IMG/VR virus record: IMGVR_UViG_3300008050_005857 | Location: 18,145 to 82,144 of that record | DNA length: 64,000 bases | Direction: 5' to 3' (one strand) | Source: a virus | Part shown: piece by piece, positions 19,564 to 38,550 of the stretch | Numbering within the stretch: the stretch's first letter is position 1 | How the letters are laid out: the number at the start of each line of letters is the position of its first letter | Notes under the pieces: model-generated | What the model saw: only the letters and a program-made list of their open reading frames with translations | Told to the model about the DNA's origin: nothing | Database searches by the model: none | Translations under genes and position numbers: made by a program

Positions 19564-21537
19564 ATGAATGAAAAATTTACGTTGTCACTTGGGTTTATAG
19601 ATAAGTACAAAAGAAAAAAACCACCATTCGGATTTAATGGATTAGGAGAGTTAGTTTATATGCGGACCTATTCTCGCATAAAAGATGACGGTAAAAATGA
19701 AATGTGGTGGGAAACTATTCAACGAGTTGTAGAAGGCACATATTCTATGCAAAAAAGTTGGATTGACCAACATCAACTTGGTTGGAATCCTTGGCAAGCA
19801 CAAGCGTCTGCTCAAGAAATGTATGACAGAATGTTTAACATGAAGTTTTTACCTCCTGGTCGGGGGTTATGGGCGATGGGAACCGCGATAACAGAAGAAA
19901 AGAATCTTTACGCAGCGCTTAATAATTGTGCATTTGTATCTACAAAAACACTAAAAGAAGATCACGCAAAACCGTTTTGTTTTTTGATGGATGCGTCAAT
20001 GTTAGGTGTAGGGGTCGGTTTTGATACAAAAGGTGCCGGCGAGATAATGATAAAAGGTATCGCGACTAACAGAGATGTACAACAGTATGAAATACCAGAT
20101 ACTCGTGAGGGGTGGGTAGATTCTGTTAGAATTCTATTAGAAAGTTATTTCCATGGAACTGCTCCAATTGAATTTGATTATACAAAAATAAGACCTGCAG
20201 GAATTCCAATTAAAGGTTTTGGAGGACAGTCAAGTGGACCGGATCCGTTAAAAGAAGTTCATGAAAAAATCCGGATAACTTTAGAAACCAATACTGGAGA
20301 TCCAATTACAATAACTACAATCGTCAACATAATGAACCTTATTGGCAAGTGTGTAGTAGCAGGAAACGTAAGAAGAACTGCTGAGATCGTGTTTGGAGAT
20401 CCAGATTCTGAAGAATATCTAGATCTTAAAAATTATAAAGTTAATCCTGAGAGAGAAGAATTTGGATGGACGTCAAATAATTCTATATTTGCAGAACTTG
20501 GTATGGATTATACCGAATCAGCAAAAAGAATTATAGATAATGGTGAACCAGGATTCGCATGGTTAGAAAACATGAGAAAATATTCTCGCATGAAAAATGG
20601 TGGAGACAATAAAGATCATCGTGCTATGGGTGGTAATCCTTGTTTAGAGCAAACATTAGAGTCTTATGAATTATGTTGTCTTGTTGAAACTTTTCCAAAT
20701 AATCATGAGTCTTTGGATGATTATGCTAGAACATTAAAATACGCATATTTGTATGCAAAAACCGTCACTCTTGGTAAAACACAGTGGTCTGAAACAAATC
20801 GTGTAATGTTAAGAGATCGAAGAATAGGATGTTCAGTGAGTGGCGTTGCTCAATTTATCACCAATCACGGTTTAGGAGAATTAAAGACTTGGTTAAATTC
20901 TGGATATGACGTTATACAAGAATGGGACAAAATGTATTCTGATTGGTTTGCAGTACCACGTTCAATCAAAACTACATCTGTTAAACCTAGCGGTACAGTT
21001 TCACTCCTCGCGGGAGCAACACCTGGATTACATTACCCAGAAAGTCGATTCTATATACGAAGGATCCGATTAGGAATCAATTCAGAATTAATTATGCCAC
21101 TAGAAAAAGCCGGATATAAAATAGAACCCGCATTCGGTTCAGAATCTACTACAGTTGTTGTTGAAGTTCCAGTCGATGCCGGTCAAGGTATCAGAACAGT
21201 TAATGACTTATCTATTTGGGAACAATTCAGTTTAGCTGCATTTATGCAAAGACATTGGGCCGATAATCAGGTGAGCTGCACAGTCACATTTGATCCTAAA
21301 ACAGAAGGCGTAGAATTACCTCAAGCATTAACTTACTTTCAATATCATTTAAAAGGAATCAGTTGTTTACCGAAACATGATTCTGGTGCTTATCGTCAAA
21401 TGCCGTATGAAGAAATAGATAAAAAAACTTATAAAGGTATGCTTTTAAAATTAAAAAAATTAAGCTTTAGAAAAGTCAAAGGTAATGAGGCTATTGTTGA
21501 AAAATTTTGCGATGGAGATACGTGTGAACTTGAATAA
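19564..21537 (+). CDS. Class II (adenosylcobalamin-dependent) ribonucleotide reductase
   Basis: A monomeric class II ribonucleoside-triphosphate reductase of 657 residues that would make dNTPs with a B12 cofactor and without an oxygen-dependent partner subunit. LPPGRGLWAMGT and LNNCAFVSTK hold the first active-site Cys. GNPCLEQTLESYELC carries the N-x-C-x-E catalytic loop. TTSVKPSGTVSLLAGATPG is the phosphate-binding loop. The C-terminus has two Cys five apart (C-D-G-D-T-C), matching the thiol shuttle pair of the Lactobacillus type. AAGGAGAG precedes the ATG. No NrdA/NrdB genes are seen, so this is the phage's visible reductase. Confidence 0.92.
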   Translation: MNEKFTLSLGFIDKYKRKKPPFGFNGLGELVYMRTYSRIKDDGKNEMWWETIQRVVEGTYSMQKSWIDQHQLGWNPWQAQASAQEMYDRMFNMKFLPPGRGLWAMGTAITEEKNLYAALNNCAFVSTKTLKEDHAKPFCFLMDASMLGVGVGFDTKGAGEIMIKGIATNRDVQQYEIPDTREGWVDSVRILLESYFHGTAPIEFDYTKIRPAGIPIKGFGGQSSGPDPLKEVHEKIRITLETNTGDPITITTIVNIMNLIGKCVVAGNVRRTAEIVFGDPDSEEYLDLKNYKVNPEREEFGWTSNNSIFAELGMDYTESAKRIIDNGEPGFAWLENMRKYSRMKNGGDNKDHRAMGGNPCLEQTLESYELCCLVETFPNNHESLDDYARTLKYAYLYAKTVTLGKTQWSETNRVMLRDRRIGCSVSGVAQFITNHGLGELKTWLNSGYDVIQEWDKMYSDWFAVPRSIKTTSVKPSGTVSLLAGATPGLHYPESRFYIRRIRLGINSELIMPLEKAGYKIEPAFGSESTTVVVEVPVDAGQGIRTVNDLSIWEQFSLAAFMQRHWADNQVSCTVTFDPKTEGVELPQALTYFQYHLKGISCLPKHDSGAYRQMPYEEIDKKTYKGMLLKLKKLSFRKVKGNEAIVEKFCDGDTCELE

Positions 21538-21585: not shown

Positions 21586-22455
21586 ATGCAAGGTTTTAAA
21601 AATCTTAATGAAATGTATTGGTATCTTTTAGCGGATCTTGATAGTGAAGGGCTAGAAGTTAGCAGTAGAGGTTCAAATCAAAAAGAAAAAATATATGTTC
21701 AATGTGGATTTAATGATCCAACTGATTTACAAGTACTATATCCAAGTAGAAAATTTAATCAGGAATATGCAATGACTGAATGGTTGTGGTATTGTTCACT
21801 TGATTCAAACGTAAAAAACATAGGAAAATTGGCTCAACTATGGAAACGCATATCAGATGACAATAATCACGTTGAATCTAATTATGGTCCTTATTTCTTT
21901 AATCCCATTAATCAACCACATTTTCAAGGTAGTCAATGGGAATGGGTTAAAGAAGAACTAATTAATGATCCAGATAGTAGAAGAGCCTCGATTGTTATTA
22001 ATCAACCATATCATAAAGGAAAAAATCCATTAGACGTTCCATGTACACAATATGTTCAATTTTTCATTCGCCAAAATAAATTACACTTAGGCGTTTCAAT
22101 GAGATCAAATGATATTGTTTATGGTTTAACCAATGATGCGTTTACATTCAGTTTATTTCAGCAGATGATGTATAATGAGTTAAAACTTAAAATGCCAGAT
22201 TTAGAGCTTGGAACGTATAATCATTTTGCTGGATCGATGCATGTGTATGAAATGCATTATGAAATGGCAAGCAAAATCTTATCAGAATCCGAATATATCA
22301 ATGAGAAAACTGATAGGAAATTTAAGCTTAAAGAAGATATCACATGGAATGTTATGATGAAAGATATAAATCCAAAATCAAAACTTATTGCGGATTCTCC
22401 TAAAGACGAAATTTTAGAGTATGTTAAAGAAAAAGAAAAGGAATTATTTGAATGA
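21586..22455 (+). CDS. dCMP hydroxymethylase-like ThyA-fold enzyme
   Basis: A thymidylate synthase superfamily enzyme of 289 residues. Catalytic Cys153 lies in DVPCTQYVQF, the phosphate-binding Arg lies in DPDSRRASIV, and MRSNDIVYGLTND spans 172-184. The residue eight after Asp176, which is Asn in thymidylate synthases and reads dUMP, is Asp184 here. That Asn-to-Asp change is the hallmark of dCMP-specific members such as T4 gp42, whose MRSND segment this one closely resembles from memory. It would make 5-hydroxymethyl-dCMP or a related C5-modified dCMP. It heads a cassette and overlaps the kinase gene (ATGA). Confidence 0.8.
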   Translation: MQGFKNLNEMYWYLLADLDSEGLEVSSRGSNQKEKIYVQCGFNDPTDLQVLYPSRKFNQEYAMTEWLWYCSLDSNVKNIGKLAQLWKRISDDNNHVESNYGPYFFNPINQPHFQGSQWEWVKEELINDPDSRRASIVINQPYHKGKNPLDVPCTQYVQFFIRQNKLHLGVSMRSNDIVYGLTNDAFTFSLFQQMMYNELKLKMPDLELGTYNHFAGSMHVYEMHYEMASKILSESEYINEKTDRKFKLKEDITWNVMMKDINPKSKLIADSPKDEILEYVKEKEKELFE

Positions 22456-22946
22456 TAGTATTTGTTGAAGGTTTATCAAAATCCGGAAAAACTCTTTTAA
22501 TAAATAAATATTGTAAAAAATATCCTGATGCTGTAAGGTTCAAGGGAGCCGGACAAATTGTCATAGGATATGGCAATCGTTGGGATGAATACAATTATTG
22601 GATGCATAATATTGTTGAGCGAATGGACGAATTAAATGATTACAAAAAAGTAATACTTTGGGACAGAGGACTTACTGAATCTGTATATGGTAATTCTCAA
22701 GTTGAGCGTTATGCAAAATGCCACATACATAAAATGGCCGCTTTTATTGATATTCCATTTAAAATTCTTGCAGAAAGGGGAACAAAGGAAGGTGTCGAAA
22801 CAGAACGTCACTTTCAAAAATATGAAAAAACGCTTTCAAAATTTGACACCGTACATCTTTTTTCAGATCAGCCAACTCATCATATAACGAACCGTATGAT
22901 TGAAACTTTACATGAGGAAATAAAATGCAGATTAGCGATTATTTAG
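22452..22946 (+). CDS. P-loop nucleotide kinase-like protein
   Basis: A 164-residue P-loop protein with Walker A GLSKSGKT at 7-14, a D-R-G-L-T-E-S segment of the type found in nucleoside-monophosphate kinases, and a basic lid-like region near 118-128. The start overlaps the dCMP-hydroxymethylase-like stop, so the two are co-translated. A role in phosphorylating modified dCMP, or a base already in DNA, is the simplest reading; both kinds of kinase occur beside ThyA homologues in hypermodifying phages. A general thymidylate-kinase-like role cannot be excluded. Confidence 0.7.
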   Translation: MIVFVEGLSKSGKTLLINKYCKKYPDAVRFKGAGQIVIGYGNRWDEYNYWMHNIVERMDELNDYKKVILWDRGLTESVYGNSQVERYAKCHIHKMAAFIDIPFKILAERGTKEGVETERHFQKYEKTLSKFDTVHLFSDQPTHHITNRMIETLHEEIKCRLAII

Positions 22947-24190
22947 ACCGAATTAATTCCATATCATCTGCAAGAAATGTAGAAGATAAAGCACATCTTG
23001 CTCGACATGTCAAAAACATAACTGTTATAATTACAGGTTCTCGTGGGGGTTCTTCGCTATTCAAAGAGGCACTTACCAGGTCTCCAGAATTATTGTTCAC
23101 TTCCGGAGAAGAATCACCATTTTTAGCTCTTACGCAAAATGAATTCCCGTTTGTTCCTTCGGATTTTCTTCAATCCAACAACATACAGTATAAAGATGAA
23201 TTAATAAGTAATATATTAGATGATCTTGGTTTAAGAATTGAAGATGGTGATTTATCAATGAATGCGTTTATTGAGCAAATGAGAAAACGCTTACTCCTTC
23301 AACTTCCAATTGAAGATTTTGATTTTAGTAAAGAACATTTAGAATCCATATTTTTTAAAATTTTTGAAGACCATAGATTTTGGGCTGGAAATTATGACGA
23401 ATTAATCAGGAAATTTTTAATTGAATTCACAGCCGGCAAAAATAAGCCATGGTTATACTATTATGATACTTTTTTAAACGGACCCGAAGAACATTATCCA
23501 CTTGATTGGAAAGTTGAAGATACGCCATTTGTTGTACCAAAATTAAAACAGCCATTAACAAAAAGCGATCTCGAGAAACATTCTTTAGTTTTTAAAACTC
23601 CTCAAAACGTTTATAGAGCCGGCATGTTTGAAACCTTATTTCCACGTGCCAAAGTAAAATATCTTCACATGACAAGGGGTTTTGCTCAATCTGTCAACGG
23701 ATTAATGGATGGATGGTTACATGATAAAGGGTTTTTCGCTAAAAATCTTGCTATGGATGGACATACGTTAAATATAAAAGGATATTCCGACATAAAAGAA
23801 TACGGCGATAAGTGGTGGAAATTTGATTTACCTCCTAATTGGGAAAATTTTAAAAATAATGCGTTATATGAAGTATGTGCTAATCAATGGGCTTCCGCAC
23901 ATGAACACGCACTAAACATTAAAATACTCAATAGCCCAGAGAACTATATGCAATTAAAATTTGAAGACTTTTTAGATTATCCACAGAAAATGATGAATGA
24001 GGTAACTGAATTTATAAACATAAAACCAATCAGTGTTGCAAATTTACCATTAGTTATGATAACAAACAAGCCTAGAAAATATAGATGGCATAAAAGAAAA
24101 AAGTTAATACGAGAATTAGCAGATCAACCAAGAATTAAATCATTAATGAAAGCATTAAAATATAGCATGGAGGAAAATACATGGATATAG
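22925..24190 (+). CDS. Sulfotransferase-fold protein
   Basis: A 421-residue protein with the two halves of a PAPS-dependent sulfotransferase. GSRGGSSLF at 38-46 is in the 5'-phosphosulfate loop position. HMTRGFAQSVNGLMDGW lies after a strand and stands in the 3'-phosphate-binding position, with Arg and Ser. The rest is helical, with many aromatic residues. It overlaps the kinase gene by 22 bases. In this cassette the acceptor could be a modified nucleotide, but glycan or protein sulfation is equally compatible. The family also includes proteins without sulfotransferase activity. Confidence 0.6.
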   Translation: MQISDYLDRINSISSARNVEDKAHLARHVKNITVIITGSRGGSSLFKEALTRSPELLFTSGEESPFLALTQNEFPFVPSDFLQSNNIQYKDELISNILDDLGLRIEDGDLSMNAFIEQMRKRLLLQLPIEDFDFSKEHLESIFFKIFEDHRFWAGNYDELIRKFLIEFTAGKNKPWLYYYDTFLNGPEEHYPLDWKVEDTPFVVPKLKQPLTKSDLEKHSLVFKTPQNVYRAGMFETLFPRAKVKYLHMTRGFAQSVNGLMDGWLHDKGFFAKNLAMDGHTLNIKGYSDIKEYGDKWWKFDLPPNWENFKNNALYEVCANQWASAHEHALNIKILNSPENYMQLKFEDFLDYPQKMMNEVTEFINIKPISVANLPLVMITNKPRKYRWHKRKKLIRELADQPRIKSLMKALKYSMEENTWI

Positions 24191-25092
24191 GAGTCAATAG
24201 CGAATTTGGAAAATTAAAATCGGTATTATTACATGTCCCAACACGAGAAGAATTTGCATTTAATTCTGCAGAAGACATGATGTTTTTAGAAGAACCAAAT
24301 TATGATAAAGTTTTATATGAAATAAATGCATACATTGAATTATTGGAATCTTTAGATATTACGGTTTATACGGATATAGGATTTCCTCTTAGAACATCAA
24401 TGGCTGTTGAATTTCCAAATCTTATTTACATGAAAGATTTAGCAATAGCAACTCCTGATCAGTTGATTCTTTGTCGTCCACATCACGATGTACGTAAAGG
24501 TGAAGAAGTATATTTACACAAGCTATTAAAACACATTGGCGTAACGGATGATCAGATCAATTTTATTCCAGTAGGGGATCATGAAGGAGCAGATATTGTA
24601 TGGTTAAATCCAAAAAAGATCATGATAAATGAAGGTTATCGTACAACTTTTAAAGCATCCGAAGAAATATCTAGATTTTTTAATTCACGATATGATATTG
24701 ATTCTCATAAAATTGAAGGTAATAAACATCACCAAATACCTCAACATATTCAAGGATCAAAGCATATTTTTTCATTGACCAATGCTGCATACAGAAAAGA
24801 ACTCGAGCCGTGGGACATGGATTTTGAAAATACATACGCGTTTAGTGAAACAGAAGAAATTGTAAAAGGCTTTTCATTAAACGTTATTACAGTGAATGAA
24901 AATGAAATTATAATGCCATCTGAATGTCCTGAAACTAAGGCAGCTTATGAATCTTTAGGTGTTAAATGTCACGAGTCTCCAATGAGCGAAATAACAAAGG
25001 GCGCTGGTGGATTTGCATGCATGACACTATTTTTAAATAGAGAAAAAGTATGGATGGGATTACTTCCGGAAGGATTACCAAATGAATATTAA
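24181..25092 (+). CDS. Amidinotransferase/pentein-family enzyme
   Basis: A 303-residue pentein of the glycine amidinotransferase/DDAH/arginine deiminase type. VNSEFGKLKSVLLHVPTREE is the usual opening. HEGADIVWLNPKKIMI near residue 134 holds the substrate-binding acidic residues, and GGFACMTL near residue 280 holds the nucleophilic Cys. Such enzymes move an amidino group from arginine or hydrolyse guanidino groups. It overlaps the sulfotransferase-like gene and the second ThyA-fold gene. Making a guanidinylated modification is an attractive inference but is not shown. Confidence 0.75.
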   Translation: MDIGVNSEFGKLKSVLLHVPTREEFAFNSAEDMMFLEEPNYDKVLYEINAYIELLESLDITVYTDIGFPLRTSMAVEFPNLIYMKDLAIATPDQLILCRPHHDVRKGEEVYLHKLLKHIGVTDDQINFIPVGDHEGADIVWLNPKKIMINEGYRTTFKASEEISRFFNSRYDIDSHKIEGNKHHQIPQHIQGSKHIFSLTNAAYRKELEPWDMDFENTYAFSETEEIVKGFSLNVITVNENEIIMPSECPETKAAYESLGVKCHESPMSEITKGAGGFACMTLFLNREKVWMGLLPEGLPNEY

Positions 25093-25840
25093 AACTTGTA
25101 ATACTGCAGGTGAAGCATTTGAATGGATGAGAGACGCCGTTAAGACTCGCGGATATGTCCATGAATCCCGTGGTAAACGCACTAAAGAATTAATGCATGT
25201 AATGGTTGAAATAAAACGTCCTGACATGTCAGTTGTATGTATACCAAGTTTCAAGTGGGATTTTATTTCACAGGAAGTTAGAGATATAATGACTGAAAAT
25301 GATGTTAGTGCAATTCATTCAAAAGAAATGTTGGAATATACCATGGGCAGCCCTGATGCAAAATTCTTCTTCGGTGCTGAAGTCCGCGAAGCATTATCAC
25401 CATGGTCTCTTGATGCAATATTTGAGTTGTTTAAACAAGATAAAGATACTCGAAAAGCCGTATTAGATTTAGGAAATCGTAAACCTGAAGAGCATATTCC
25501 CTGTCTTTCGTTCGCCCACTTAGTAATTAGAGATAACAAGTTACATTGCACCCTTGAAACACGCAGTACAGATTTAGCATTTGGGTATCCATACGATACA
25601 GTTTTATTTACAGTTATGCAAAGATATATGTTACACAGATTGCAAGAAATATATCCTGAGTTAAAATTAGGTTCATTCTTTTATAAAAGTATTTGCATGC
25701 ATTATTACTTAAAGAATAATGATACACCACTAAAAGATTTAAACTTAACAACTAATGATCCAGAGGATTGCTGGTTACCTCCAGATACTCAAGGCTGGTT
25801 TGAAGATTGCATCATATCAGGAGATCCAAATCATGCCTAG
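25082..25840 (+). CDS. Second ThyA-fold enzyme with dCMP-type specificity residue
   Basis: A 252-residue divergent thymidylate synthase-fold protein. Cys141 in EEHIPCLSF is in the catalytic position. RSTDLAFGYPYD spans 161-172. Eight residues after Asp164 there is Asp172 where thymidylate synthase has Asn, the same change as in the gene at 21.6 kb. MHYYLKN takes the place of the GDxHxYxNH motif. The N-terminal 110 residues are shorter than usual. It may act on dCMP, or on modified dCMP or DNA, as the second step of one pathway. It overlaps genes on both sides. Confidence 0.7.
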   Translation: MNIKTCNTAGEAFEWMRDAVKTRGYVHESRGKRTKELMHVMVEIKRPDMSVVCIPSFKWDFISQEVRDIMTENDVSAIHSKEMLEYTMGSPDAKFFFGAEVREALSPWSLDAIFELFKQDKDTRKAVLDLGNRKPEEHIPCLSFAHLVIRDNKLHCTLETRSTDLAFGYPYDTVLFTVMQRYMLHRLQEIYPELKLGSFFYKSICMHYYLKNNDTPLKDLNLTTNDPEDCWLPPDTQGWFEDCIISGDPNHA

Positions 25841-26696
25841 AAATTCAACTAAAATAGAAATAATAGACGATAAAAAAGTTATGGTCAAAACAATGTCTAC
25901 AAAACTTTATAATCCGGCAATTTATGATTGGCAAAATGAAGTACATGACCATTTTTTAGATAATACTGGTTTTTACATCAATAAAGTTTTAGGTCACAGT
26001 AATGGAGTTTTGCATTTAGACTATATTGATTATAAGTCAAAACCTACTACAAATAAAGATTTACAGTTATTTGGTAAGTCAATGGCTAAATTACACAATT
26101 CTGGAAGAGACTGGAATTTTTCATGGACAATGGCGCGAAATGGTGATGCTGGATGGATAAAAACCAGTCTTCCATATAAAGATGAAACATATAGCACCAT
26201 GGCGTCGTGGAATAATATACGTAGAAATGATTGGCTATTTTTAAAATCAAAAGGTATACGCAAAGAAATATTCGAAACATTAAAAACATTAGATAAATTA
26301 CCTGATCAGCCGAAATCTAAACTCCATAGAGATTTTAGATTGCACAATATTTTGTATGACGAACGCGGTTACCATTTAATAGATTTTGATTTTGCTTCAA
26401 TTGATTTTATATCATTAGAAGTAATGGGGTTATTTACGGACTTATATGAGCTTGTTCCTGAAATGGCACGACAATTTTTGATTGGTTATCATAGTGAGTC
26501 AAAAGATTGGGAATGGTCAAGTGGAATGGTTGATTTATTTTTGTGCTATCTTTGTACAAATACATTTCCATTTTCAATGTCAAGTCATATGGATAAAAAT
26601 GAAGTAGAAGCTTTAGCCGATGAACGAAATGCAAGACTAAGAATTATTTATGAAAATAAAGAAAACATATTAAAAATGATTGAGGAAATAAAATGA
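25833..26696 (+). CDS. Aminoglycoside-phosphotransferase-fold kinase
   Basis: A 287-residue protein of the APH/choline-kinase fold. The catalytic loop reads KLHRDFRLHNILY and the metal-binding Asp lies in YHLIDFDFASIDF. ATG 25833 is chosen because AGGAGA lies just upstream and the start overlaps the ThyA-like stop by eight bases. Family members phosphorylate small hydroxylated or aminated molecules. Placement between a ThyA-fold enzyme and dUTPase suggests a nucleotide or modified-base substrate, but this is inference. The gene overlaps dUTPase by four bases. Confidence 0.75.
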   Translation: MPRNSTKIEIIDDKKVMVKTMSTKLYNPAIYDWQNEVHDHFLDNTGFYINKVLGHSNGVLHLDYIDYKSKPTTNKDLQLFGKSMAKLHNSGRDWNFSWTMARNGDAGWIKTSLPYKDETYSTMASWNNIRRNDWLFLKSKGIRKEIFETLKTLDKLPDQPKSKLHRDFRLHNILYDERGYHLIDFDFASIDFISLEVMGLFTDLYELVPEMARQFLIGYHSESKDWEWSSGMVDLFLCYLCTNTFPFSMSSHMDKNEVEALADERNARLRIIYENKENILKMIEEIK

Positions 26697-27136
26697 AAAT
26701 AAGTAAAATACGAGACGTTAAAACGCCAGTACGAGCAAATGGTAATGATGCCGGCATAGATTTTTTTATACCAAACAAATGGAATATCGGCAATGAATAT
26801 CATCTATCACCAGGCCAACAAGCACTAATACCTTCAGGTGTCAAAGTAAATGTTCCAGAAGGTTATGCATTAATTGCGTTTAATAAATCAGGCATTGCCA
26901 CTAAAAAACAATTGATTGCTGGCGCTGCAGTAGTAGATGAAGGTTATCAAGGGGAGCTTCATATACACGTAATCAATGCTGGTTCAACTGTTCAGACATT
27001 GATCGCCGGCGACAAAATAATGCAATTTATTTTAGTACCTATGTTTTATGATTCAATTGAAGAAGTAGATGCATCAGTATTATTTGAAGATAATTCAACT
27101 AGGGGTGCTGGCGGATTTGGTTCAACCGGTGAATAA
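26693..27136 (+). CDS. dut: dUTPase
   Basis: A trimeric dUTPase of 147 residues that hydrolyses dUTP to dUMP and keeps uracil out of DNA. All five motifs are recognisable, including NDAGIDFF (motif 1), NKSGIA (motif 2), AGAAVVDEGYQGELHI (motif 3) and the C-terminal RGAGGFGSTG (motif 5). The length fits the family. ATGA overlap couples it to the APH-like kinase. tRNA genes follow, so it probably ends the cassette transcript. Confidence 0.95.
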   Translation: MKISKIRDVKTPVRANGNDAGIDFFIPNKWNIGNEYHLSPGQQALIPSGVKVNVPEGYALIAFNKSGIATKKQLIAGAAVVDEGYQGELHIHVINAGSTVQTLIAGDKIMQFILVPMFYDSIEEVDASVLFEDNSTRGAGGFGSTGE

Positions 27137-27151: not shown

Positions 27152-27224
27152 GGGGCTGTAGCTCAGTTGGGAGAGCGCCGCACTTGCACTGCGGAGGTCG
27201 CAGGTTCGATCCCTGTCAGCTCCA
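27152..27224 (+). tRNA. tRNA-Ala (UGC)
   Basis: A 73-nt cloverleaf. The acceptor stem GGGGCTG pairs with CAGCTCC and contains the G3:U70 wobble, the alanine identity element. The D arm is GCTCAGTTGGGAGAGC, the anticodon loop CTTGCAC gives UGC, and the T arm carries GGTTCGATCC. The discriminator is A and no CCA is encoded. It lies 15 bases after dut. Confidence 0.97.
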
Positions 27225-27229
27225 CAAAT

Positions 27230-27300
27230 GTAGAGGTGTCCGAATGGCTAGGTAACGGATTGCAACCCCGTGTATGTGAGTTCGAATCTCATCCTCTACT
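27230..27300 (+). tRNA. tRNA-Cys (GCA)
   Basis: A 71-nt tRNA, five bases after tRNA-Ala. The acceptor stem GTAGAGG pairs with CCTCTAC. The anticodon loop TTGCAAC gives GCA, the T arm carries GTTCGAATC, and the discriminator is U as in cysteine tRNAs. CCA is not encoded. One A-C mismatch closes the anticodon stem. Confidence 0.93.
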
Positions 27301-27311
27301 CAAAATAAAAC

Positions 27312-27375: not shown

Positions 27376-29826
27376 ATGTCATTTGAACTAACCCGCATTG
27401 CTTCTAAGTTCAATAAAGGTCAATTTAAAATGTTTTTAACAGGCTATGAAGATGGAAAGCGTGTAACAAAGTATGATATGTTTCAAGATTATTTCTATTA
27501 TGATACTGAACATATTTCTGACGTTGAAAGCAAGCCCGGGTTTACAGTTGATAAGACTTCTGAAATAAAAACCATTGACGATAAAAAGGGCTATAAAGTA
27601 AATTATACATCAATCGTCAATAAGAAAAGATTTATCAGAAAACATACGGACAGATCATATATTGCCGATGTATCACCTGAATTCAAATATATTCAAGATA
27701 AGAATCTGAAATGGTCACATAAACGTAACATATGTTTTTTTGATATTGAAACGTGGTATGATCCTGATAATCCAAGAGCAAACAAACCTGATAATGCCCA
27801 AATGCCTATTACATCAATGGTTGCATATGCAGTTGATACTGAAAAATATTTTGTATTTTCTTGGCATCCTGAACATACTAAAAATGATGAAAAACCTAGA
27901 CGTGAAGATAAAGATAATGTTGCATTCATCTATCTAAAAGACGAAGAAACCATGATCGAAGCGTTTCTTTATTATGTTAAGAAAAACAATGTAGATGTTC
28001 TCACAGGATGGTATTCATCGCAATTTGATTTACCATACATTATAAACCGGTGCAAAAACTTAGATATTGATTATTCCAAGCTTTCTCCAGTTGGTTACAT
28101 TAAAATGTATAAAAAACAAGATTATTTTAAATTAACAGTCAATGGTCTTGACTGTATTGATCTTATGGATTCTATGCAAGACCTTGGATTTAAACTCACA
28201 AATTGGAAACTTGATACAGCTGCGAAAGAAGTTGTTGGAACAGTAGAAAAAATGACAGAGTTTACATGGAAAGACTGGCTTGAAAATTATGAAGGGTTTT
28301 TAGAATATAATATACAAGACGTAAAAATACTTCTTGAAATAGAAAAGAAATTAAATATTTTTTCTTTGTATTGTATTATTCAAGAGATTGCGGGTCTTGA
28401 AGCTTTTAAGTTTATATTCTTTAAATCGATGCTAGTTGACTATTACATTCTTAAAGCCTTTAACGGCAAAATGCTTTTTCCAACACAACAAGTAAAACAG
28501 CGACAATCATTTGCAGGCGCCATTGTATTAGATCCACAAGAGCCGGGAGGCCATGAAGATGTTGCAACATTAGATTATACATCTCTATATCCAACAAGCA
28601 TAATGGCATTTAATATTAGCCCTGAAACTTTTATTTGCAGTGAAGAAAATGCCATAGAAGAAACCGGAATGACAATCGATCAAATCGCCAGCGAGTTAAA
28701 AACTAGGAAGATTGATTTCATAGATACTGGTCATGATGCAACCTTATTCGGCAAACGCTATCTGTTTTTTGGTCACTCTCACAGACTGGGTATTATGCCC
28801 TTTCTGTTGAAAACGTTATTCTTAATGCGTAAAGATATTAATGCAAAGTTAGACGCTGGTGAAATACCTGAAAAAGATAGAGTTGCAAACGAACGCAAAC
28901 AGCGAGCTATTAAATTAATTCTTAATTCCGCATATGGGGCTATGGGTTTTAATTATTTTAGAATGTATAAGCCTGAATGCGCTGATGCAACAACGTATTT
29001 CGGTAGACAAGCGTTATTGTACGCTGTTGATACAATGAAAAATGAGTATGACATGCCAGTTTTATATGGCGATACTGATTCAACTTTTGTAAAACAAAAT
29101 GGCAAATCTATTAATCAAATTGTAGATTTACTTGAAGGTGATTTTACAGATAAACTTAGAAATGTATTTGTTCCAAAGTACTCAACAACAGTTAATGACG
29201 ATTACTTTTATCTTGATCTTAAATTTGAAAAAGATCTTGAACATGTATATTTTGGTAATGCTAAAAAACGTTATTATGGTATTGAACGAACCTCCGGTAA
29301 GCGGTACATCCGTGGCCTAAACATTATTCGTAAAGACGCTCCAACATATTGTAAAAAGATACTCGACACCCTTGCAGAAAAAGCTGTAAGAGGCAAGTTA
29401 ACAGCGGATGATCTTATACGTATACGTAAAGAGATTGCTCAAGTACCGTTAAGTCAAATTGGTATTGTCAAAAGTTTTAGTAAACGATTTGAAGAGTATA
29501 TTAAAAGTAAACCTCAACATCTTACAGCGTGCCAATGGGCTAATGAAATATTTGACATCAGCATCAATAATATGGACAAGCCATTACTGTTTTATGCTAC
29601 AGCGCTACAAGAAGATCACTTAAAACCTAAAAAACGTCATCGTGCAATATGTGTACTTGACGATCAATTAGATCTTTTAAAGAAAGAAAATGAATTTTTC
29701 AAACTCGATTATGATACATTTTTTAAAAAGCAAATTTACGAACAACTAGAAGAATTTAGTCAAATACCCTATATTGAAACTATTTTAAAGGAATATGATG
29801 AAACGGCGAAGACTATTAACTTTTAA
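27376..29826 (+). CDS. Family-B replicative DNA polymerase (gp43-like)
   Basis: An 816-residue B-family polymerase with 3'-5' exonuclease. Exo I is FFDIET with Asp123 and Glu125. Exo II is near WYSSQFDLPY, and Exo III near YNIQDVKIL. Polymerase motif A is LDYTSLYPTS (Asp400), motif B is KLILNSAYGAMG, and motif C is YGDTDS (Asp566, Asp568). It is slightly shorter than T4 gp43 (about 900 residues). AAAGGA precedes the ATG. It is the likely main replicase; the family-A-like ORF at 10.2 kb is separate. Confidence 0.95.
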   Translation: MSFELTRIASKFNKGQFKMFLTGYEDGKRVTKYDMFQDYFYYDTEHISDVESKPGFTVDKTSEIKTIDDKKGYKVNYTSIVNKKRFIRKHTDRSYIADVSPEFKYIQDKNLKWSHKRNICFFDIETWYDPDNPRANKPDNAQMPITSMVAYAVDTEKYFVFSWHPEHTKNDEKPRREDKDNVAFIYLKDEETMIEAFLYYVKKNNVDVLTGWYSSQFDLPYIINRCKNLDIDYSKLSPVGYIKMYKKQDYFKLTVNGLDCIDLMDSMQDLGFKLTNWKLDTAAKEVVGTVEKMTEFTWKDWLENYEGFLEYNIQDVKILLEIEKKLNIFSLYCIIQEIAGLEAFKFIFFKSMLVDYYILKAFNGKMLFPTQQVKQRQSFAGAIVLDPQEPGGHEDVATLDYTSLYPTSIMAFNISPETFICSEENAIEETGMTIDQIASELKTRKIDFIDTGHDATLFGKRYLFFGHSHRLGIMPFLLKTLFLMRKDINAKLDAGEIPEKDRVANERKQRAIKLILNSAYGAMGFNYFRMYKPECADATTYFGRQALLYAVDTMKNEYDMPVLYGDTDSTFVKQNGKSINQIVDLLEGDFTDKLRNVFVPKYSTTVNDDYFYLDLKFEKDLEHVYFGNAKKRYYGIERTSGKRYIRGLNIIRKDAPTYCKKILDTLAEKAVRGKLTADDLIRIRKEIAQVPLSQIGIVKSFSKRFEEYIKSKPQHLTACQWANEIFDISINNMDKPLLFYATALQEDHLKPKKRHRAICVLDDQLDLLKKENEFFKLDYDTFFKKQIYEQLEEFSQIPYIETILKEYDETAKTINF

Positions 29827-30271
29827 ACGAATATTAAAAGCCCTTGAGTACTCATCGACATGTGCAAAAATAAAAGTTGCGGCAATTGTTGTTAAAGAAG
29901 GAAGAGTTATATCGACCGGCTGGAACGGTTCTCCATCTGCAATGCCACATTGTGAAGATGTTTTTAAAGGTAAAGATCTCGGTCGGCCAGGCGATAAAAC
30001 GAAATTATCAAACGAACACCATGATTTCGCAGTACACAATGAAATACACGCCGAAATGAATGCAATATCGTTTGCTGCAAGATATGGAACATCAACTGAT
30101 GGTGCAACATTGATTTGTTCATGGTCACCATGCCTTGAATGTGCAAAGATAGTTGTAGGTTCTGGAATTAAAGAAGTATATTATACTAATTTGTATGGGC
30201 GTCAACCTGAAGGAATAGACTTTTTAGAAAAATGCGGAATTAAGACGCAATATATAGGAAAGAAACAATAA
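29795..30271 (+). CDS. dCMP deaminase
   Basis: A zinc-dependent deoxycytidylate deaminase of 158 residues that converts dCMP to dUMP. HAEMNAI supplies the zinc His and catalytic Glu, and SPCLECAK supplies the two Cys ligands. An insert with HCEDVF and a second Cys/His set matches the phage dCMP deaminase type. The start overlaps the polymerase 3' end by 32 bases. With dUTPase it feeds dUMP synthesis, competing with the dCMP-directed ThyA-fold enzymes for substrate. Confidence 0.92.
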   Translation: MMKRRRLLTFKRILKALEYSSTCAKIKVAAIVVKEGRVISTGWNGSPSAMPHCEDVFKGKDLGRPGDKTKLSNEHHDFAVHNEIHAEMNAISFAARYGTSTDGATLICSWSPCLECAKIVVGSGIKEVYYTNLYGRQPEGIDFLEKCGIKTQYIGKKQ

Positions 30272-30291: not shown

Positions 30292-30669
30292 ATGAAAACT
30301 ATAAAAGATACATCACATTCATTACCAAAATCGCCCGCTGAATCTATTTTAGATAATGCTTATCCACAAATGATAGCAGAATTTAAAAAGGTTCAACAAG
30401 AACAATTTGATCTCTTCTGTAAAAAACAACACGATTACGGTCCAGGAAACATTTCTGTAGGCACTCAACTTCAAACCGAAGATGAAATAAAGCTTTCACT
30501 AACCGGACTTTGGTTCAGGATTAATGACAAATGCCAGAGATTAAAGAATCTTTTAATGAGCGGTAGACAACCTGCTGTAACTGACGAACCAATGGAAGAC
30601 GCGTATCTTGATATATCGAATTATGGTATCATGGCGACAATTGTTGCTAGAGGAAAATGGGGTAAATAA
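30292..30669 (+). CDS. DUF1599-type nucleotide-modification-associated protein
   Basis: A 125-residue protein with FCKKQHDYGPGNIS, GLWFRINDKCQRLKNLL and DAYLDISNYGIMA. These match the DUF1599 family, which has been linked by genome context to phage nucleotide modification. The biochemical function is not established to my knowledge. AAGGAG precedes the ATG. It sits after dCMP deaminase and overlaps the tiny membrane ORF by one base (TAATG). Confidence 0.75.
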   Translation: MKTIKDTSHSLPKSPAESILDNAYPQMIAEFKKVQQEQFDLFCKKQHDYGPGNISVGTQLQTEDEIKLSLTGLWFRINDKCQRLKNLLMSGRQPAVTDEPMEDAYLDISNYGIMATIVARGKWGK

Positions 30670-30752
30670 TGGTAATGTTTACTATGGTATTTATTGGTAG
30701 TTTAATAATGTGGTTTTTAATAGAACAAGAATCAAAGAGGCGAAGAAAATGA
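30669..30752 (+). CDS. 27-residue single-pass membrane peptide
   Basis: This short ORF starts in a TAATG overlap with the DUF1599-type gene and stops in an ATGA overlap with glutamine synthetase. The product has a hydrophobic stretch of about 18 residues (MFTMVFIGSLIMWFL) followed by E-Q-E-S-K-R-R-R-K, so the basic tail should stay in the cytoplasm. The double overlap with real genes is the main support. It may only be a coupling element. Confidence 0.55.
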   Translation: MVMFTMVFIGSLIMWFLIEQESKRRRK

Positions 30753-31792
30753 AAACATATTTAGAATATATTTGGATTGACGGTACTATTCCAACAAGTA
30801 AATTAAGAGCTAAAACAAAAATTTTGAGTGAGCCTATTAAAGATATTCAAGATATTCCTATTTGGGGTTTTGATGGTAGCTCAACAAATCAAGCGTCCGG
30901 TGATAGTTCCGATTGTGTTCTTAAACCTGTAAAAATGGTTAAAGATCCATTTAGAATTTGTGGTGAAGATGAACAAGCTTTACTAGTATTGTGTGAAGTA
31001 TACGATGTACCAAAGACGGCTTTTGGAATCGACGAAGTTGCACACACAACAAATACCAGAATGGAGTTATTAATGACGATGATGCAATATAATACGACTT
31101 CAGCGTGGGTAGGGTTCGAACAAGAATATACATTGTTTAAAGATGGACGCCCATTAGGCTGGCCTGAAAAAGGCTATCCACCTCCACAGGGTCCATTTTA
31201 TTGTGGAATAGGTGCAGATGAGGTTTACGGTCGTGATATTGTTGAGGAACATTTATTTGCATGTCACTACGCAGATTTAGCAGTTTGCGGTGTTAATGCA
31301 GAAGTAATGCCTGGTCAATGGGAATATCAAGTTGGTGCTGGAGATTTATTGGTAATGTGTGATGATTTATGGTTGTCTCGTTATATCCTGTATCGTATAG
31401 CGGAAAAACATGACGTTGTAGTTACACTTCATCCAAAGCCCGTAGCAGGAGATTGGAATGGTGCGGGAATGCATACAAATTTTTCAACTGCTCAAATGAG
31501 AGAACCTGGCGGTTATACCAAAGAAATTATACCAGCAATGGATAAGTTGAAAAATAACGTGGATCATTGTATTGCTGCGTATGGACAAGACAACAACTTA
31601 AGACTTACAGGCCTTCATGAAACGTGTGACATTAATACTTTCAAGTGGGGAGTATCAGACAGAGGAGCATCAATTAGAATTCCTTGGCAAGTTGTTAAAG
31701 ACGGTAGAGGATATTTCGAAGATAGAAGACCATCCGCTAATGCAGATCCTTATTTAGTTGCATCTGTAATATTAGATACAGTATCTGAATAA
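30749..31792 (+). CDS. Glutamine synthetase, type II
   Basis: A 347-residue GSII (eukaryotic-type) glutamine synthetase that joins ammonia to glutamate using ATP. It shows IWGFDGSSTNQA, FEQEYTLF, GPFYCGIGADEVYGR, AGDWNGAGMHTNFST and the end DRGASIRIPWQ with FEDRRPSANADPY. Length and motif order match complete GSII enzymes. ATG 30749 is chosen because GAGGCGAAG precedes it and it overlaps the small ORF's stop. It could serve nitrogen metabolism during infection or supply glutamine for an amido-transfer step. It is an auxiliary metabolic gene. Confidence 0.93.
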   Translation: MKTYLEYIWIDGTIPTSKLRAKTKILSEPIKDIQDIPIWGFDGSSTNQASGDSSDCVLKPVKMVKDPFRICGEDEQALLVLCEVYDVPKTAFGIDEVAHTTNTRMELLMTMMQYNTTSAWVGFEQEYTLFKDGRPLGWPEKGYPPPQGPFYCGIGADEVYGRDIVEEHLFACHYADLAVCGVNAEVMPGQWEYQVGAGDLLVMCDDLWLSRYILYRIAEKHDVVVTLHPKPVAGDWNGAGMHTNFSTAQMREPGGYTKEIIPAMDKLKNNVDHCIAAYGQDNNLRLTGLHETCDINTFKWGVSDRGASIRIPWQVVKDGRGYFEDRRPSANADPYLVASVILDTVSE

Positions 31793-34237: not shown

Positions 34238-35722
34238 ATGTTTAAAATTGGAGATATTCGAAATGGATATCCGGTCCTTCCTCGGGAAGAACGTAAAACA
34301 ATGCTTCTATTATCAGATGATTTTAGAATGACATCTGGTGTAGGTAATGTATCCCGGGAGTTTGTATTGGGAACTTGTCATAGATTCAATTGGGTGCAAA
34401 TTGGTGGGGCCATAAAGCATCCTGAAGCAGGGAATGCAATTGACATGAATGATGATCTGATAGAACGTACAGGTGTTCCGGAAGTAGAATGTAAAATTCA
34501 TCCAGTAGATGGTTATGGAAATCCTGATATTGTACGTGGAGCAATGGCGCACTACAATTTGTCTGGCATAATGATTTATACGGATCCACGATTTTGGGAA
34601 TGGTTATTTCAAATGGAACGAGAAGTCCGTCAATTTTTACCTATAATGTATTATAACATATGGGATGATCTTCCGTATCCAATGTGGAATCAAAAGTATT
34701 ATGATTCTGTAGATGCATTGTTTAATATTTCAAAACAAACATGCAATATTGTGCGAAATGTTAGATCATCATATGAGGATTGGCAAGTAACGTATATTCC
34801 TCATGGAATAAATAAAAAAGATTATTTTCCGCTTCCAGTTAACTATGAAAAAGCCGATCAGTTTAATAAATTTAAAAATGAAGGATTTGACGGAAAAGAT
34901 AAAGATTTTGTTATACTATTTAATGCTCGTAATATTAGAAGAAAATTACCAGCAGATATTATTTACGCGTATAGAACATTTTGTGATTCTATTTCAAAAG
35001 AGGATGCGTCAAAATGCTTACTAGTAATGCACTGCAATCCGCAAGACGAAAACGGCACAAATTTACCAGAAGTTGCAACTCAACTTGCAGGTGAGTATGA
35101 TGTTGCATTTTCACCGAATAAGTTTGAACGCGAACAAATAAATTGGTTATACAATACAGCAGATGTAACCATATTAATAAGCTCCAACGAGGGATTTGGC
35201 TTATCAGGCGCAGAATCATTGATGTGTGGAACTCCAATAATTGTTAACGTATCTGGTGGAATGCAAGATTATTGTGGATTCAAAAAAGAAGATGGAACTT
35301 ATTTAACACATGAAGATTATACCCCTGAATGGGGATCTAATCATGATGGTCGATATAAAGATCATGGTGAATGGGTATTTCCAGTGTGGGCAACAAGTAG
35401 ATCCTTACAGGGCTCTATGCCAACACCATATATTTCAGATGACAGACCGGATTTTCAAGATATAGCAATACAAATGAAAAAAGCATGGTCTGAAAGAGGT
35501 GAAAAGTTAAACGCTAGGGGAATGGCTGGGAGAAAGTACGTTACAAATCCAGAATTTGGATTTGAATCGGATGAAATGAATAAGCGGTTTACTCATGACA
35601 TTGAAAATACACTTAAAATGTGGAAACCTAGATCGAGAATCGATATTCATGATGCTAGTAAATGGGAAATTCCAAAAAACAAATACAATGGGCTAACATT
35701 GACAAAGGAAATTGAAGTATGA
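34238..35722 (+). CDS. GT4-type glycosyltransferase
   Basis: A 494-residue GT-B-fold glycosyltransferase. The N-terminal part has KTMLLLSDDFRMTSGVG. The C-terminal Rossmann half shows YIPHGINKKDYFPL, ILFNARNIRRK and NEGFGLSGAESLMCGTPII, the E-x7-E nucleotide-sugar site of GT4 enzymes. AAGGAGG precedes the ATG. It opens a cluster of some dozen glycan-related genes and overlaps the next glycosyltransferase by four bases. Donor and acceptor are unknown. Confidence 0.85.
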   Translation: MFKIGDIRNGYPVLPREERKTMLLLSDDFRMTSGVGNVSREFVLGTCHRFNWVQIGGAIKHPEAGNAIDMNDDLIERTGVPEVECKIHPVDGYGNPDIVRGAMAHYNLSGIMIYTDPRFWEWLFQMEREVRQFLPIMYYNIWDDLPYPMWNQKYYDSVDALFNISKQTCNIVRNVRSSYEDWQVTYIPHGINKKDYFPLPVNYEKADQFNKFKNEGFDGKDKDFVILFNARNIRRKLPADIIYAYRTFCDSISKEDASKCLLVMHCNPQDENGTNLPEVATQLAGEYDVAFSPNKFEREQINWLYNTADVTILISSNEGFGLSGAESLMCGTPIIVNVSGGMQDYCGFKKEDGTYLTHEDYTPEWGSNHDGRYKDHGEWVFPVWATSRSLQGSMPTPYISDDRPDFQDIAIQMKKAWSERGEKLNARGMAGRKYVTNPEFGFESDEMNKRFTHDIENTLKMWKPRSRIDIHDASKWEIPKNKYNGLTLTKEIEV

Positions 35723-37014
35723 TAAAAAGTGCAGTTAAATCAAAACCAAAAGTACTAGTGACGGCACCAGTCGGTACAAGATCGGGTTATGGTTCTAGAT
35801 CAAGAGATATTGTTAGAGCATTAGTTTCACTTGATAAATATGATGTTGCTGTCAATCCTGTCCCATGGGGAAATACGCCTCAAAATGCACTTGACAAAAC
35901 AGACGAAAAAGATCTTATAATTATTAATAGAATACGACAAGTTACAGAAAAACCCGACGTACATATTCACATTGTAGTACCCAATGAATTTGCTTCAATA
36001 GGAACATATAATATTGGCATTACAGCGGGATTAGAAACTACTCTTATACCGCAGCCATGGATTGAAGGCTGCAATAGAATGGATCTTGTCTTAACAAGTT
36101 CAGCGTTTGCAAAAGATAGTATGGTTGGCACTGAATATACGAATTCAGAAACACAAGAATCTTTGAAGGTTGAAACCCCTGTCGAAGTATTATTTGAAGG
36201 TGCAGACCTTGAAACATATTTTCCGACGTCTTCATGTTCAAAGATTTTGGCAGATGAAATGGAGAAAATTGAGACTGATTGGAATTATTTATTTGTTGGC
36301 CATTGGCTCCAAGGGGCTCTCGGTCATGATCGTAAAGATGTTGGAATGTTAGTTAAAGTGTTTATGGAAACATTTTCTGATAAAAGTAATGTTGGACTAA
36401 TATTAAAGACTAGTGGTGCAACTCCTTCAATAATGGACATTGAAGATATTAGTAGAAAAATTTTCGAAATCAAATCAACCGTCAAAAACCCAAACCCACC
36501 ATCAGTTTATTTTATGTCAGCAGATCTACATGATAGTGAAATGAATGATTTATATAATCATCCGAAAGTAAAAGCTCATATTTCATTTACTCATGGAGAA
36601 GGATTTGGAAGACCATTGTTGGAAGCTTCTTTATCAGAAAAACCAGTTCTGGTACCAAAATTTAGTGGACATGTTGATTTTTTACGCGGTAAACAACAAA
36701 AATGGCTACCCGGTGGACTAATTAATGTTGAACAAGATGCATTTCCAGATGGTATGTGGATTGAAGGTCAACAGTGGTTCGGTGTTAATTATGGCGCTGC
36801 AGCTGATATGATGAAACATCTTAAATTCAACTATAGAAAAGCTAAACTTTGGGCTAAAAAGCTAGCAGCAAACAATAGATCCAAATTTTCAATGCGTGCC
36901 ATGGAAATTAAATTGAATTCTATTTTAGATTCAAAATTACCTGAATTTACACAAACTGTTGGATTAAATTTGCCAAAATTAAATTTGCCAAAACTAGAAA
37001 AGGTTAAGGAATAA
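35719..37014 (+). CDS. GT4-type glycosyltransferase
   Basis: A 431-residue GT-B glycosyltransferase. APVGTRSGYGSRSRDIVRAL is the glycine-rich N-terminal loop. LFEGADLETYFP and FTHGEGFGRPLLEASLSEKP form the C-terminal nucleotide-sugar site. It ends with a short NLPKL repeat and a Lys-rich tail. It starts in an ATGA overlap with the previous glycosyltransferase, so the two probably act in sequence on one glycan. Confidence 0.85.
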   Translation: MIKSAVKSKPKVLVTAPVGTRSGYGSRSRDIVRALVSLDKYDVAVNPVPWGNTPQNALDKTDEKDLIIINRIRQVTEKPDVHIHIVVPNEFASIGTYNIGITAGLETTLIPQPWIEGCNRMDLVLTSSAFAKDSMVGTEYTNSETQESLKVETPVEVLFEGADLETYFPTSSCSKILADEMEKIETDWNYLFVGHWLQGALGHDRKDVGMLVKVFMETFSDKSNVGLILKTSGATPSIMDIEDISRKIFEIKSTVKNPNPPSVYFMSADLHDSEMNDLYNHPKVKAHISFTHGEGFGRPLLEASLSEKPVLVPKFSGHVDFLRGKQQKWLPGGLINVEQDAFPDGMWIEGQQWFGVNYGAAADMMKHLKFNYRKAKLWAKKLAANNRSKFSMRAMEIKLNSILDSKLPEFTQTVGLNLPKLNLPKLEKVKE

Positions 37015-37015
37015 C

Positions 37016-37465
37016 ATGGAAAGAGTAGTACAATGCGCCCATTGCGCAACAGAAGACCATTGCTTTGAAGAAATGCAAGAAACCTATAGTTCGTTTATGT
37101 GTTTCAATTGTGGATTTATGAGTGATACTAGATTCACTAAAAAAAATGAAGAAAAACTCACTCCGGATTCTACAATATTAGTGAATAAATTAAAAATATT
37201 TGATAAAGAAAGAAAGATATGGTGGTTCCCAGCCGTAGTCAATATGGGTAAACTAGGAATCATATTTCCTGAAGGTACAGAAGAAGCGTGGAACTGGAAA
37301 TATGCAAAGGCTATTAAAGTTTCAGAAGAAAAGAAAGAAGAAATCGGCGATTTTGAGATGATGTTAGATACAGAAAATGCAGAGAGTTATGAAAAATTTG
37401 ATTTTTTAAGTGCGTGTCAAGACATGGGTATTGCTAAAGATCTTACCCTAGCATCAGATGGCTAA
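37016..37465 (+). CDS. Zinc-ribbon protein of unknown function
   Basis: A 149-residue protein whose first 40 residues hold two CxxC pairs (CAHC and CFNC), a likely zinc ribbon. The remaining domain (IWWFPAVVNMGKLGIIFPEG) is not recognised. It begins one base after the preceding stop and overlaps the following gene by eight bases. It could be a DNA- or RNA-binding factor, or a small structural protein in the glycan cluster. Confidence 0.65.
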   Translation: MERVVQCAHCATEDHCFEEMQETYSSFMCFNCGFMSDTRFTKKNEEKLTPDSTILVNKLKIFDKERKIWWFPAVVNMGKLGIIFPEGTEEAWNWKYAKAIKVSEEKKEEIGDFEMMLDTENAESYEKFDFLSACQDMGIAKDLTLASDG

Positions 37466-37940
37466 AGTAAGAATTACGTGGTCAAATGTTACAGCTGGCG
37501 ATGTAGTACAATTTCGATACAAGGGGAAATCAGGTAAGAGTCGTCTTAGAACTTGCCTTATACTTAACGAAAAATTTATGTATAAACGAGTTAAAGATGG
37601 TAAAAGAGTTAGACTTGTTCATGCACTACAACTCAATGCACAACCGAAGCCTCCTAAGTCTAAACGAATTACAGAGAGTCAATATAAGAAAATGTTTCAA
37701 AAAGTAGGTGGTCTTGAACTTCGAGATCAACGGTATGGAGTTGATACTGAAAGAGCCCAAGCAAAACAAACATATTCTAAATTGGCTAGTCTTATAAAGG
37801 GCAGAGGAATTTATAGAACATTTAGCTGGCATGTATTACGGACAAGAGCCGCGTTTGTTCCAGACGATTTTAAATGGCCTAATCAGTTATTAAAAGAATT
37901 ACAGGATAGTATCCCAGAAGTTGATGAAGAAATGTTATAG
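37458..37940 (+). CDS. Unknown basic 160-residue protein
   Basis: Starts inside the zinc-ribbon gene. The N-terminus (TAGDVVQFRYKGKSGKSRLR) looks like a small beta-barrel, and the rest is Lys/Arg-rich helix, which would suit nucleic-acid binding. AGGAGG follows the stop and serves the methyltransferase. No family is recognised. Confidence 0.6.
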   Translation: MAKVRITWSNVTAGDVVQFRYKGKSGKSRLRTCLILNEKFMYKRVKDGKRVRLVHALQLNAQPKPPKSKRITESQYKKMFQKVGGLELRDQRYGVDTERAQAKQTYSKLASLIKGRGIYRTFSWHVLRTRAAFVPDDFKWPNQLLKELQDSIPEVDEEML

Positions 37941-37948
37941 GAGGTAAA

Positions 37949-38518
37949 ATGGCCCATATAGAGCAATGGGATTTTTGTAAAGAAGTTAAACGTAACTTCC
38001 CACAGTTTTTTAAAAATGTTAAGGTTTTAGATATTGGATCTTTTGATGTAAACGGAAACGAAGAATTTTTATTTGACGATTCGGATTTTTCTGGATTAGA
38101 TTTAATGGAAGGTCCAGGAGTTGATATCGTTTGTACTGCACAAGAATACGACGCTCCTGATGAAACATACGATACAATTATTTCATGTGAGTGTTGGGAA
38201 CATAATCCTTACTATGCAGAAAGTATGCAAAATGCTGTAAGAATGTTAAAGTCAAAAGGCTTTTTTATTTTTACATGTGCAACGACTGGCCGACCTGTTC
38301 ATGGAACGCTATCTCTTGAAGAGACAAGTAAAGAAGAACATGAAAATTGGAAAACTATGCCTAATGTTAGAAGACCAAATTGGGATAACGAATACTATAG
38401 AAACGTCACAGAAGAAATGGTAAGAGAGGCAATTGATATTGAAAATACCTTTTCAGAGTTTGAATTTTCTATCCACGAAGAACATTCTGATTTGTACTTT
38501 TGGGGAATAAAAAAATAA
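37949..38518 (+). CDS. Class I SAM-dependent methyltransferase
   Basis: A 189-residue Rossmann-fold methyltransferase. VKVLDIGSFDVNGNE is motif I, the following acidic strand ends in SGLDLMEG, and TYDTIISCECWEH plus MLKSKGFFIFTCAT complete the fold. The motif set is that of small-molecule or sugar methyltransferases (Methyltransf_11 type) and not of DNA methylases, which would show a catalytic NPPY or PC motif. AGGAGG precedes the start. It probably caps or decorates the glycan. Confidence 0.75.
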   Translation: MAHIEQWDFCKEVKRNFPQFFKNVKVLDIGSFDVNGNEEFLFDDSDFSGLDLMEGPGVDIVCTAQEYDAPDETYDTIISCECWEHNPYYAESMQNAVRMLKSKGFFIFTCATTGRPVHGTLSLEETSKEEHENWKTMPNVRRPNWDNEYYRNVTEEMVREAIDIENTFSEFEFSIHEEHSDLYFWGIKK

Positions 38519-38523
38519 TTTTT

Positions 38524-38550
38524 GAACAACCAAACTTATATATATTATAA
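38524..38550 (+). promoter_or_regulatory. TATATATT promoter-like box with leaderless start
   Basis: TTTTTGAAC is followed by TATATATATT at 38537-38546 and TATAA, then ATG at 38551 with no Shine-Dalgarno. The arrangement copies that at 10.15 kb, where the box also almost touches the start codon. Confidence 0.45.

Follow-up and report, generated by a model that had tools for sequence, protein, structure and literature searches.

A candidate cytosine hypermodification cassette in a swappable slot of marine T4-like phage genomes

Positions 21586-26696 of the window (the whole 64 kb stretch of DNA analyzed, which is the last part of a virus record of 82 kb in IMG/VR) probably represent a cytosine hypermodification cassette, one of the alternative contents that marine T4-like phages of one clade keep in a swappable slot. 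This is the best reading because the slot is swappable, because the first of the two ThyA-fold enzymes encoded in it (ThyA1) groups with the ThyAs of phages that decorate their bases, and because the decorating genes of these relatives are missing here. The gene content, the operon-like layout, the specificity residues, the orthology of ThyA1 and the conservation of the slot are directly observed. A role in DNA modification is likely, with the comparison of the slots bearing on this role and not on the product; the phage DNA very probably contains 5-hydroxymethylcytosine, and further decoration of this base by the cassette genes is, on balance, to be expected. A sequence-only reading of the same DNA had proposed a hypermodification cassette with two dCMP-type ThyAs, and both proposals stand, in contrast to the name 'amidinotransferase' that it gave to one of the enzymes.

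Seven plus-strand genes occupy positions 21586-27136, with the ORF positions of the sequence-only reading confirmed. As it had described, the cassette genes overlap serially, each sharing 4-22 bases with the next, and 2.6 kb separates the end of ThyA1 from the start of ThyA2; a purine-rich, ribosome-binding-like stretch precedes most of the cassette starts. The locus and its surroundings are organized as follows:

19564..21537, plus strand, class II ribonucleotide reductase (RNR_Alpha 5e-43, phrog_367 2.7e-130), the left border of the slot, also in relatives
21586..22455, plus strand, ThyA1, predicted dCMP 5-hydroxymethylase (thymidylate synthase PF00303 2e-20)
22452..22946, plus strand, small P-loop kinase, thymidylate-kinase-like (phrog_761 3.6e-4, Walker A)
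22925..24190, plus strand, sulfotransferase-fold protein of 421 amino acids (Sulfotransfer_3 1.5e-6)
24181..25092, plus strand, guanidino-group-modifying enzyme, DDAH/arginine-deiminase-like (ADI superfamily 9e-12)
25082..25840, plus strand, ThyA2, divergent second dCMP-type ThyA-fold enzyme (PF00303 6.6e-7)
25833..26696, plus strand, APH-fold small-molecule kinase (PF01636 4e-10 to 4.9e-10)
26693..27136, plus strand, dUTPase (PF00692 2.5e-16), the right border of the slot in most relatives
27376..29826, plus strand, family B DNA polymerase, the anchor for finding relatives
29795..30271, plus strand, dCMP deaminase (phrog_174 2.5e-46)
30292..30669, plus strand, DUF1599, Nucleotide modification associated domain 1, a possible accessory (PF07659 1e-6)

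The start of the APH gene is better placed at the ATG at 25833, which follows an AGGAG-type stretch, than at 25755. The nearby dCMP deaminase and dUTPase are consistent with nucleotide pool control without being specific for it; they also serve ordinary thymidine supply, which counts against the cassette reading. Directly after the dUTPase gene, at 27152-27301, lie genes for tRNA-Ala(TGC) and tRNA-Cys(GCA). A GlnII-type glutamine synthetase is encoded at 30710-31792, with copies, at about 48% identity, only in huge uncultured phages; in three relatives (L023, L025 and L026), GroES/GroEL-like genes right after the polymerase take its place.

A twin contig of 132 kb (IMGVR_UViG_3300025133_000036) is more than 99.9% identical to the window over the common part and adds 55 kb upstream, which makes an assembly accident at the cassette unlikely, and the possibility of a chimeric assembly was dropped on this ground. 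The nearest relatives of the family B polymerase, at about 26% identity, are those of T4-like phages of cyanobacteria and Vibrio; together with the nucleotide-metabolism genes here and structural genes elsewhere, this affinity points to a distant marine T4-like myovirus. Past the end of the twin contig at 58861, the remainder of the window (58861-64000) has a higher GC content (about 0.42) and few coding stretches, so that this end could belong to another region or result from misassembly. A type IV pilin-like protein (GFTLIELVMVTIILGILAAVAIPRY) is encoded at 50803-51249 of this phage contig.

Alignment of the polymerase recovered about fifty related IMG/VR loci with 42-54% polymerase identity, and across these loci, the interval between the ribonucleotide reductase (RNR) and the dUTPase or DNA polymerase varies in content. 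A ThyA is present in 30 of the 32 complete RNR-to-polymerase slots (the twin contig counted); the two slots that lack it belong to the most distant relatives, one of which has a ThyA elsewhere. The 52 copies of dUTPase form a single cluster. In 18 loci (type A), DUF6378 and a T4 beta-glucosyltransferase (PF09198 5.9e-20) lie beside ThyA; 16 loci (type B) contain inositol-1-phosphate synthase (2.1e-23), a small polynucleotide-kinase-phosphatase-like protein and an HMUDK_hel kinase (1.7e-9), HMUDK_hel being the helical domain of the 5-hmdU DNA kinase; eight loci (type C) contain a small P-loop kinase and/or an asparagine-synthetase-like ligase (asparagine synthase 4.5e-37). The window set is type D, type E (L104-L109, L141, L144) consists of ThyA and DUF6378 with no decorating gene, and type F (L142) combines a SIS isomerase, a ribulose-phosphate epimerase, a nucleotidyltransferase-kinase and a possible glycosyltransferase. 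Thus, the same slot holds a beta-glucosyltransferase, an HMUDK-type kinase, an amide ligase or arabinosylation-like genes in the relatives, in agreement with the proposed hypermodification cassette; the sequence-only reading had regarded unlinked cassette genes in relatives as evidence against it, and the relatives instead have a different cassette in the same place.

Inositol-1-phosphate synthase, the small phosphatase-like protein and the HMUDK_hel kinase accompany a cytosine-type ThyA in L111, L113, L114, L117, L122, L131, L136 and L150, and L110, L112, L118, L119 and L123 also group with these inositol-type slots next to the polymerase; an inositol-linked cytosine modification, for which a literature search found no precedent, is possible. 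In L023, L026, L134, L145 and L146, the ThyA that accompanies the small P-loop kinase and the asparagine-synthetase-like ligase is highly divergent (RSCDxxRHxRDD); these slots may encode a further cytosine pathway, one that includes an amide step. Positions 1297-9701 of L142 encode a ThyA, the SIS isomerase, the ribulose-phosphate epimerase, a nucleotidyltransferase-APH fusion, the possible glycosyltransferase and a C5-cytosine methylase homolog, and by analogy appear to resemble the arabinosyl-hydroxymethylcytosine module. Between RNR and ThyA, L105-L109 and L144 encode a large protein (up to 955 amino acids) resembling a host-type outer-membrane receptor, a hint of a Bacteroidota- or Marinimicrobia-like host.

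In the thymidylate synthase (TS) family, the residue at the Asn177 position tracks the base, Asp for cytosine and Asn for uracil, and deoxyribose substrates are marked by an Arg/Ser pair (PMC5175136). The Asp eight residues after the RSxD Asp, on which the sequence-only reading had based the dCMP specificity, is present in both ThyAs (RSNDIVYGLTND; RSTDLAFGYPYD), and alignment with T4 gp42, MilA and TS places it, not Asn, at the Asn177/Asp179 position. The same Asp is found in 46 of the 46 slot ThyAs, compared with Asn in the SPO1 dUMP hydroxymethylase (gp29), so that a chance change in one gene was dropped as an explanation. The deoxyribose Arg and Ser are retained in the alignment as well (DSRR and MRSND in ThyA1; DTRK and TRSTD in ThyA2). 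ThyA1 belongs to the TS fold family, with invariant catalytic Cys and Glu columns; its nearest solved structures by sequence are MilA CMP hydroxymethylase (1.3e-22) and T4 dCMP hydroxymethylase (4.1e-18), followed by TS, and it groups, with a support of 0.94, with 25 ThyAs from phages of the glucosylating, inositol and pentose types. The beta-glucosyltransferase neighbors directly support hydroxymethyl-dCMP synthesis by this ThyA lineage, to which ThyA1 belongs, and ThyA1 is accordingly predicted from its sequence to be a dCMP 5-hydroxymethylase. Given the cytosine Asp and the hydroxymethylases as nearest structures, a role for ThyA1 as the dTMP synthase of the phage was dropped; neither contig contains a further TS/ThyA or a ThyX.

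The search for the same gene set in other phage genomes, suggested by the sequence-only reading, places it in a single virus, represented by two contigs. Tblastn against 50 697 GenBank phage records produced no match for the guanidino-enzyme, the P-loop kinase, the sulfotransferase or the APH protein; an IMG/VR search with the guanidino-enzyme alignment, as well as single-protein pattern scans of IMG/VR (with exact short peptides, of low sensitivity, which miss distant relatives), detected the twin contig only; scans of genome contigs gave nothing at first and then one distant deiminase-like protein from Thermomicrobia. The guanidino-enzyme and the sulfotransferase were absent from the 15 relatives searched (empty results obtained without a positive control), each of which has at most one ThyA by the Pfam model. 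Conversely, profile searches of the window and the additional 55 kb upstream identified none of the decorating genes of the relatives, including the beta-glucosyltransferase; the HMUDK_hel kinase profile of the relatives finds nothing in the window virus, where the P-loop protein has no HMUDK match in Pfam. Because these decorating genes are absent and the set is restricted to this virus, the four unusual enzymes occupy the exact place of the base-decorating enzymes of the relatives. Searches of the open-access literature found no described system in which phage DNA hypermodification involves an amidinotransferase, a sulfotransferase or an arginine deiminase.

The phage might make 5-hydroxymethylcytosine only, via ThyA1, in which case the sulfotransferase-fold, guanidino-enzyme, APH and ThyA2 genes would be unrelated cargo in a variable spot. 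The type E relatives, whose slots contain ThyA and DUF6378 but lack a decorating gene, and the lack of homologs of the four genes among the relatives searched fit this explanation, but it is unlikely given that the genes are interleaved between the two dCMP-type ThyAs and mutually overlapping, and that in the other slot types, the same place holds mostly DNA-modification-related genes. With the set present in one virus only, there is no conservation that would speak for the joint action of the sulfotransferase, the guanidino-enzyme, ThyA2 and the APH kinase, and the lack of a T4-kind glycosyltransferase in the window slot also counts against the cassette reading.

ThyA2 lies outside the group of ThyA1 and so is not a recent copy of it. 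Its best PDB sequence matches are weak ones to TS (1.7e-5); its AlphaFold2 model, of moderate confidence (pLDDT 68), has the TS fold (Foldseek to TS 1.7e-11), and the structure search with this model gives TS mixed with the phage dCMP hydroxymethylase 9iqu. Residues E65, C141, R161, S162, H207 and Y209 are invariant in the alignment with the clade ThyAs. ThyA2 could be a dCMP 5-methylase (Xp12-like, producing 5-methylcytosine) next to the hydroxymethylase ThyA1, so that the DNA would carry two cytosine marks. Both the cytosine Asp and the finding of thymidylate synthases, not hydroxymethylases, as the nearest solved sequences agree with this variant of the main reading, which nevertheless seems quite improbable: the sequence of ThyA2 is too divergent to tell a methylase from a hydroxymethylase, and the C-terminal region is of low confidence in the model and not comparable.

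The P-loop kinase contains a Walker A motif (EGLSKSGKT) and a DRG motif; its similarity to thymidylate kinase is weak (phrog_761), rising to 4e-7 with a profile built from this protein and the slot kinases of the relatives, and its structure model (pLDDT 45) is too poor for use. It belongs to no confident family, a further point against the cassette reading, and is proposed, from these motifs and matches, to be a kinase of hydroxymethyl-dCMP or of hydroxymethylcytosine in DNA. The sulfotransferase fold proposed in the sequence-only reading agrees with a Sulfotransfer_3 hit just above the cut-off (29.1 versus 27 bits), next to a match to the CurM sulfotransferase (0.0011); the GSRGGSS and TRGFAQS stretches resemble, by eye only, PAPS-binding loops. 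The 'amidinotransferase' is named correctly only at the superfamily level because amidinotransferases score far below DDAH and arginine deiminase: a single-sequence search yields DDAH (1.3e-9), and a two-sequence profile yields DDAH at 4e-21, arginine deiminase at 2e-14 and amidinotransferase at 1e-3. The superfamily catalytic residues C280, H184 and E135 are invariant in the alignment, and the protein appears closer to dimethylarginine/arginine hydrolases, with transfer and hydrolysis not separable by sequence alone. The APH assignment, made previously, is upheld by PF01636 and by the catalytic motifs HRDFRLHN (HxDxxxxN) and DFD (DxD).

Glycosyltransferases, a DegT aminotransferase, a dTDP-sugar epimerase and a methyltransferase are encoded at 34238-46468, and the first two glycosyltransferase-like genes are kept across slot types. 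That the sulfotransferase, guanidino-enzyme and APH kinase, with this large sugar cluster at 34-46 kb, modify a host-surface or virion sugar or amino acid is very improbable, for all the frequency of sulfotransferases and APH-fold kinases in glycan and antibiotic pathways, because the cassette sits in an operon for nucleotide metabolism, separated from the sugar cluster by 7 kb and several genes, and the conserved glycosyltransferases also occur in relatives with other slot contents. A separate point against the cassette reading is that the base might instead receive its decoration from the conserved glycosyltransferases at 34-37 kb.

For the cytosine hypermodification cassette, we infer the reactions, their order and the product as follows. 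ThyA1 would convert dCMP to 5-hydroxymethyl-dCMP with methylene-tetrahydrofolate as the donor, and ThyA2, judged by its specificity residues, would act alongside it as a second dCMP-type C5 transferase. The P-loop kinase would phosphorylate either hydroxymethyl-dCMP (the role of T4 gp1) or the hydroxymethyl group in DNA, and the modified base would enter the genome through the polymerase encoded at 27376. Its decoration would then fall to the sulfotransferase-fold, guanidino-acting and APH-fold enzymes, a role that glucosyl-, inositol-, amide- or pentose-adding enzymes would perform in the relatives. Sulfation might be an activating step: once esterified with sulfate, the hydroxymethyl carbon would carry a leaving group, as it does with phosphate in thymidine hypermodification. 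For the guanidino-enzyme, trimming or transfer of a group derived from arginine is conceivable. A guanidinylated or sulfated cytosine, as suggested in the sequence-only reading, is a guess, and it is doubtful that the product is a new derivative of 5-hydroxymethylcytosine formed by a sulfotransferase-type step (a stable sulfate, or a leaving group replacing phosphate priming) together with an arginine-derived side group processed by the guanidino-enzyme. The likely benefit would be protection from host nucleases.

The chemically diverse DNA bases of phages have so far been discovered singly. Here, a single syntenic slot reveals, across a widespread marine clade, at least five alternative sets of cytosine-decoration genes, which suggests modular exchange of the decoration chemistry and bears on phage escape from restriction and CRISPR. 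The window set brings in enzyme classes that were found together with ThyA in no other phage searched, and provides a short list of genes for expression on hydroxymethylcytosine DNA and a lead to an unknown DNA base.

Among the known systems, thymidine hypermodification (ViI, M6 and phiW-14, with a 5-hmdU DNA kinase followed by amine addition) shares with the cassette a ThyA homolog and a kinase that might prime a hydroxymethyl group, and with the type B relatives the HMUDK_hel kinase, whereas the window ThyAs are of the cytosine type (Asp, not the dUMP-type Asn) and no HMUDK domain was found in the cassette. In the CmoA-CmoX-CmoY 5-carboxymethylcytosine system (PMC12783734), a C5 handle on cytosine is likewise decorated by an accessory enzyme, and CmoY, similarly to the type C slots, is an asparagine-synthetase-like ligase; the window virus has no such ligase, and its handle would come from ThyA instead of a carboxymethyltransferase. 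In RB69, an arabinosylation module lies beside the DNA polymerase (PMC6024577), so that here, too, alternative decoration genes adjoin a T4-like polymerase, and the slot of L142 contains a SIS isomerase and sugar genes; in the window cassette, by contrast, the SIS isomerase, the pentose epimerase and the nucleotidyltransferase are all missing. The T4 hydroxymethylcytosine pathway consists of the gp42 dCMP hydroxymethylase, the gp1 dNMP kinase and alpha/beta-glucosyltransferases. A dCMP-type ThyA with the specificity Asp, the T4-like phage background and, at the slot of the relatives, a beta-glucosyltransferase homolog are common to both, but the window virus has no beta-glucosyltransferase and has in its place a second ThyA together with enzymes of the sulfotransferase-fold, guanidino-acting and APH kinds.
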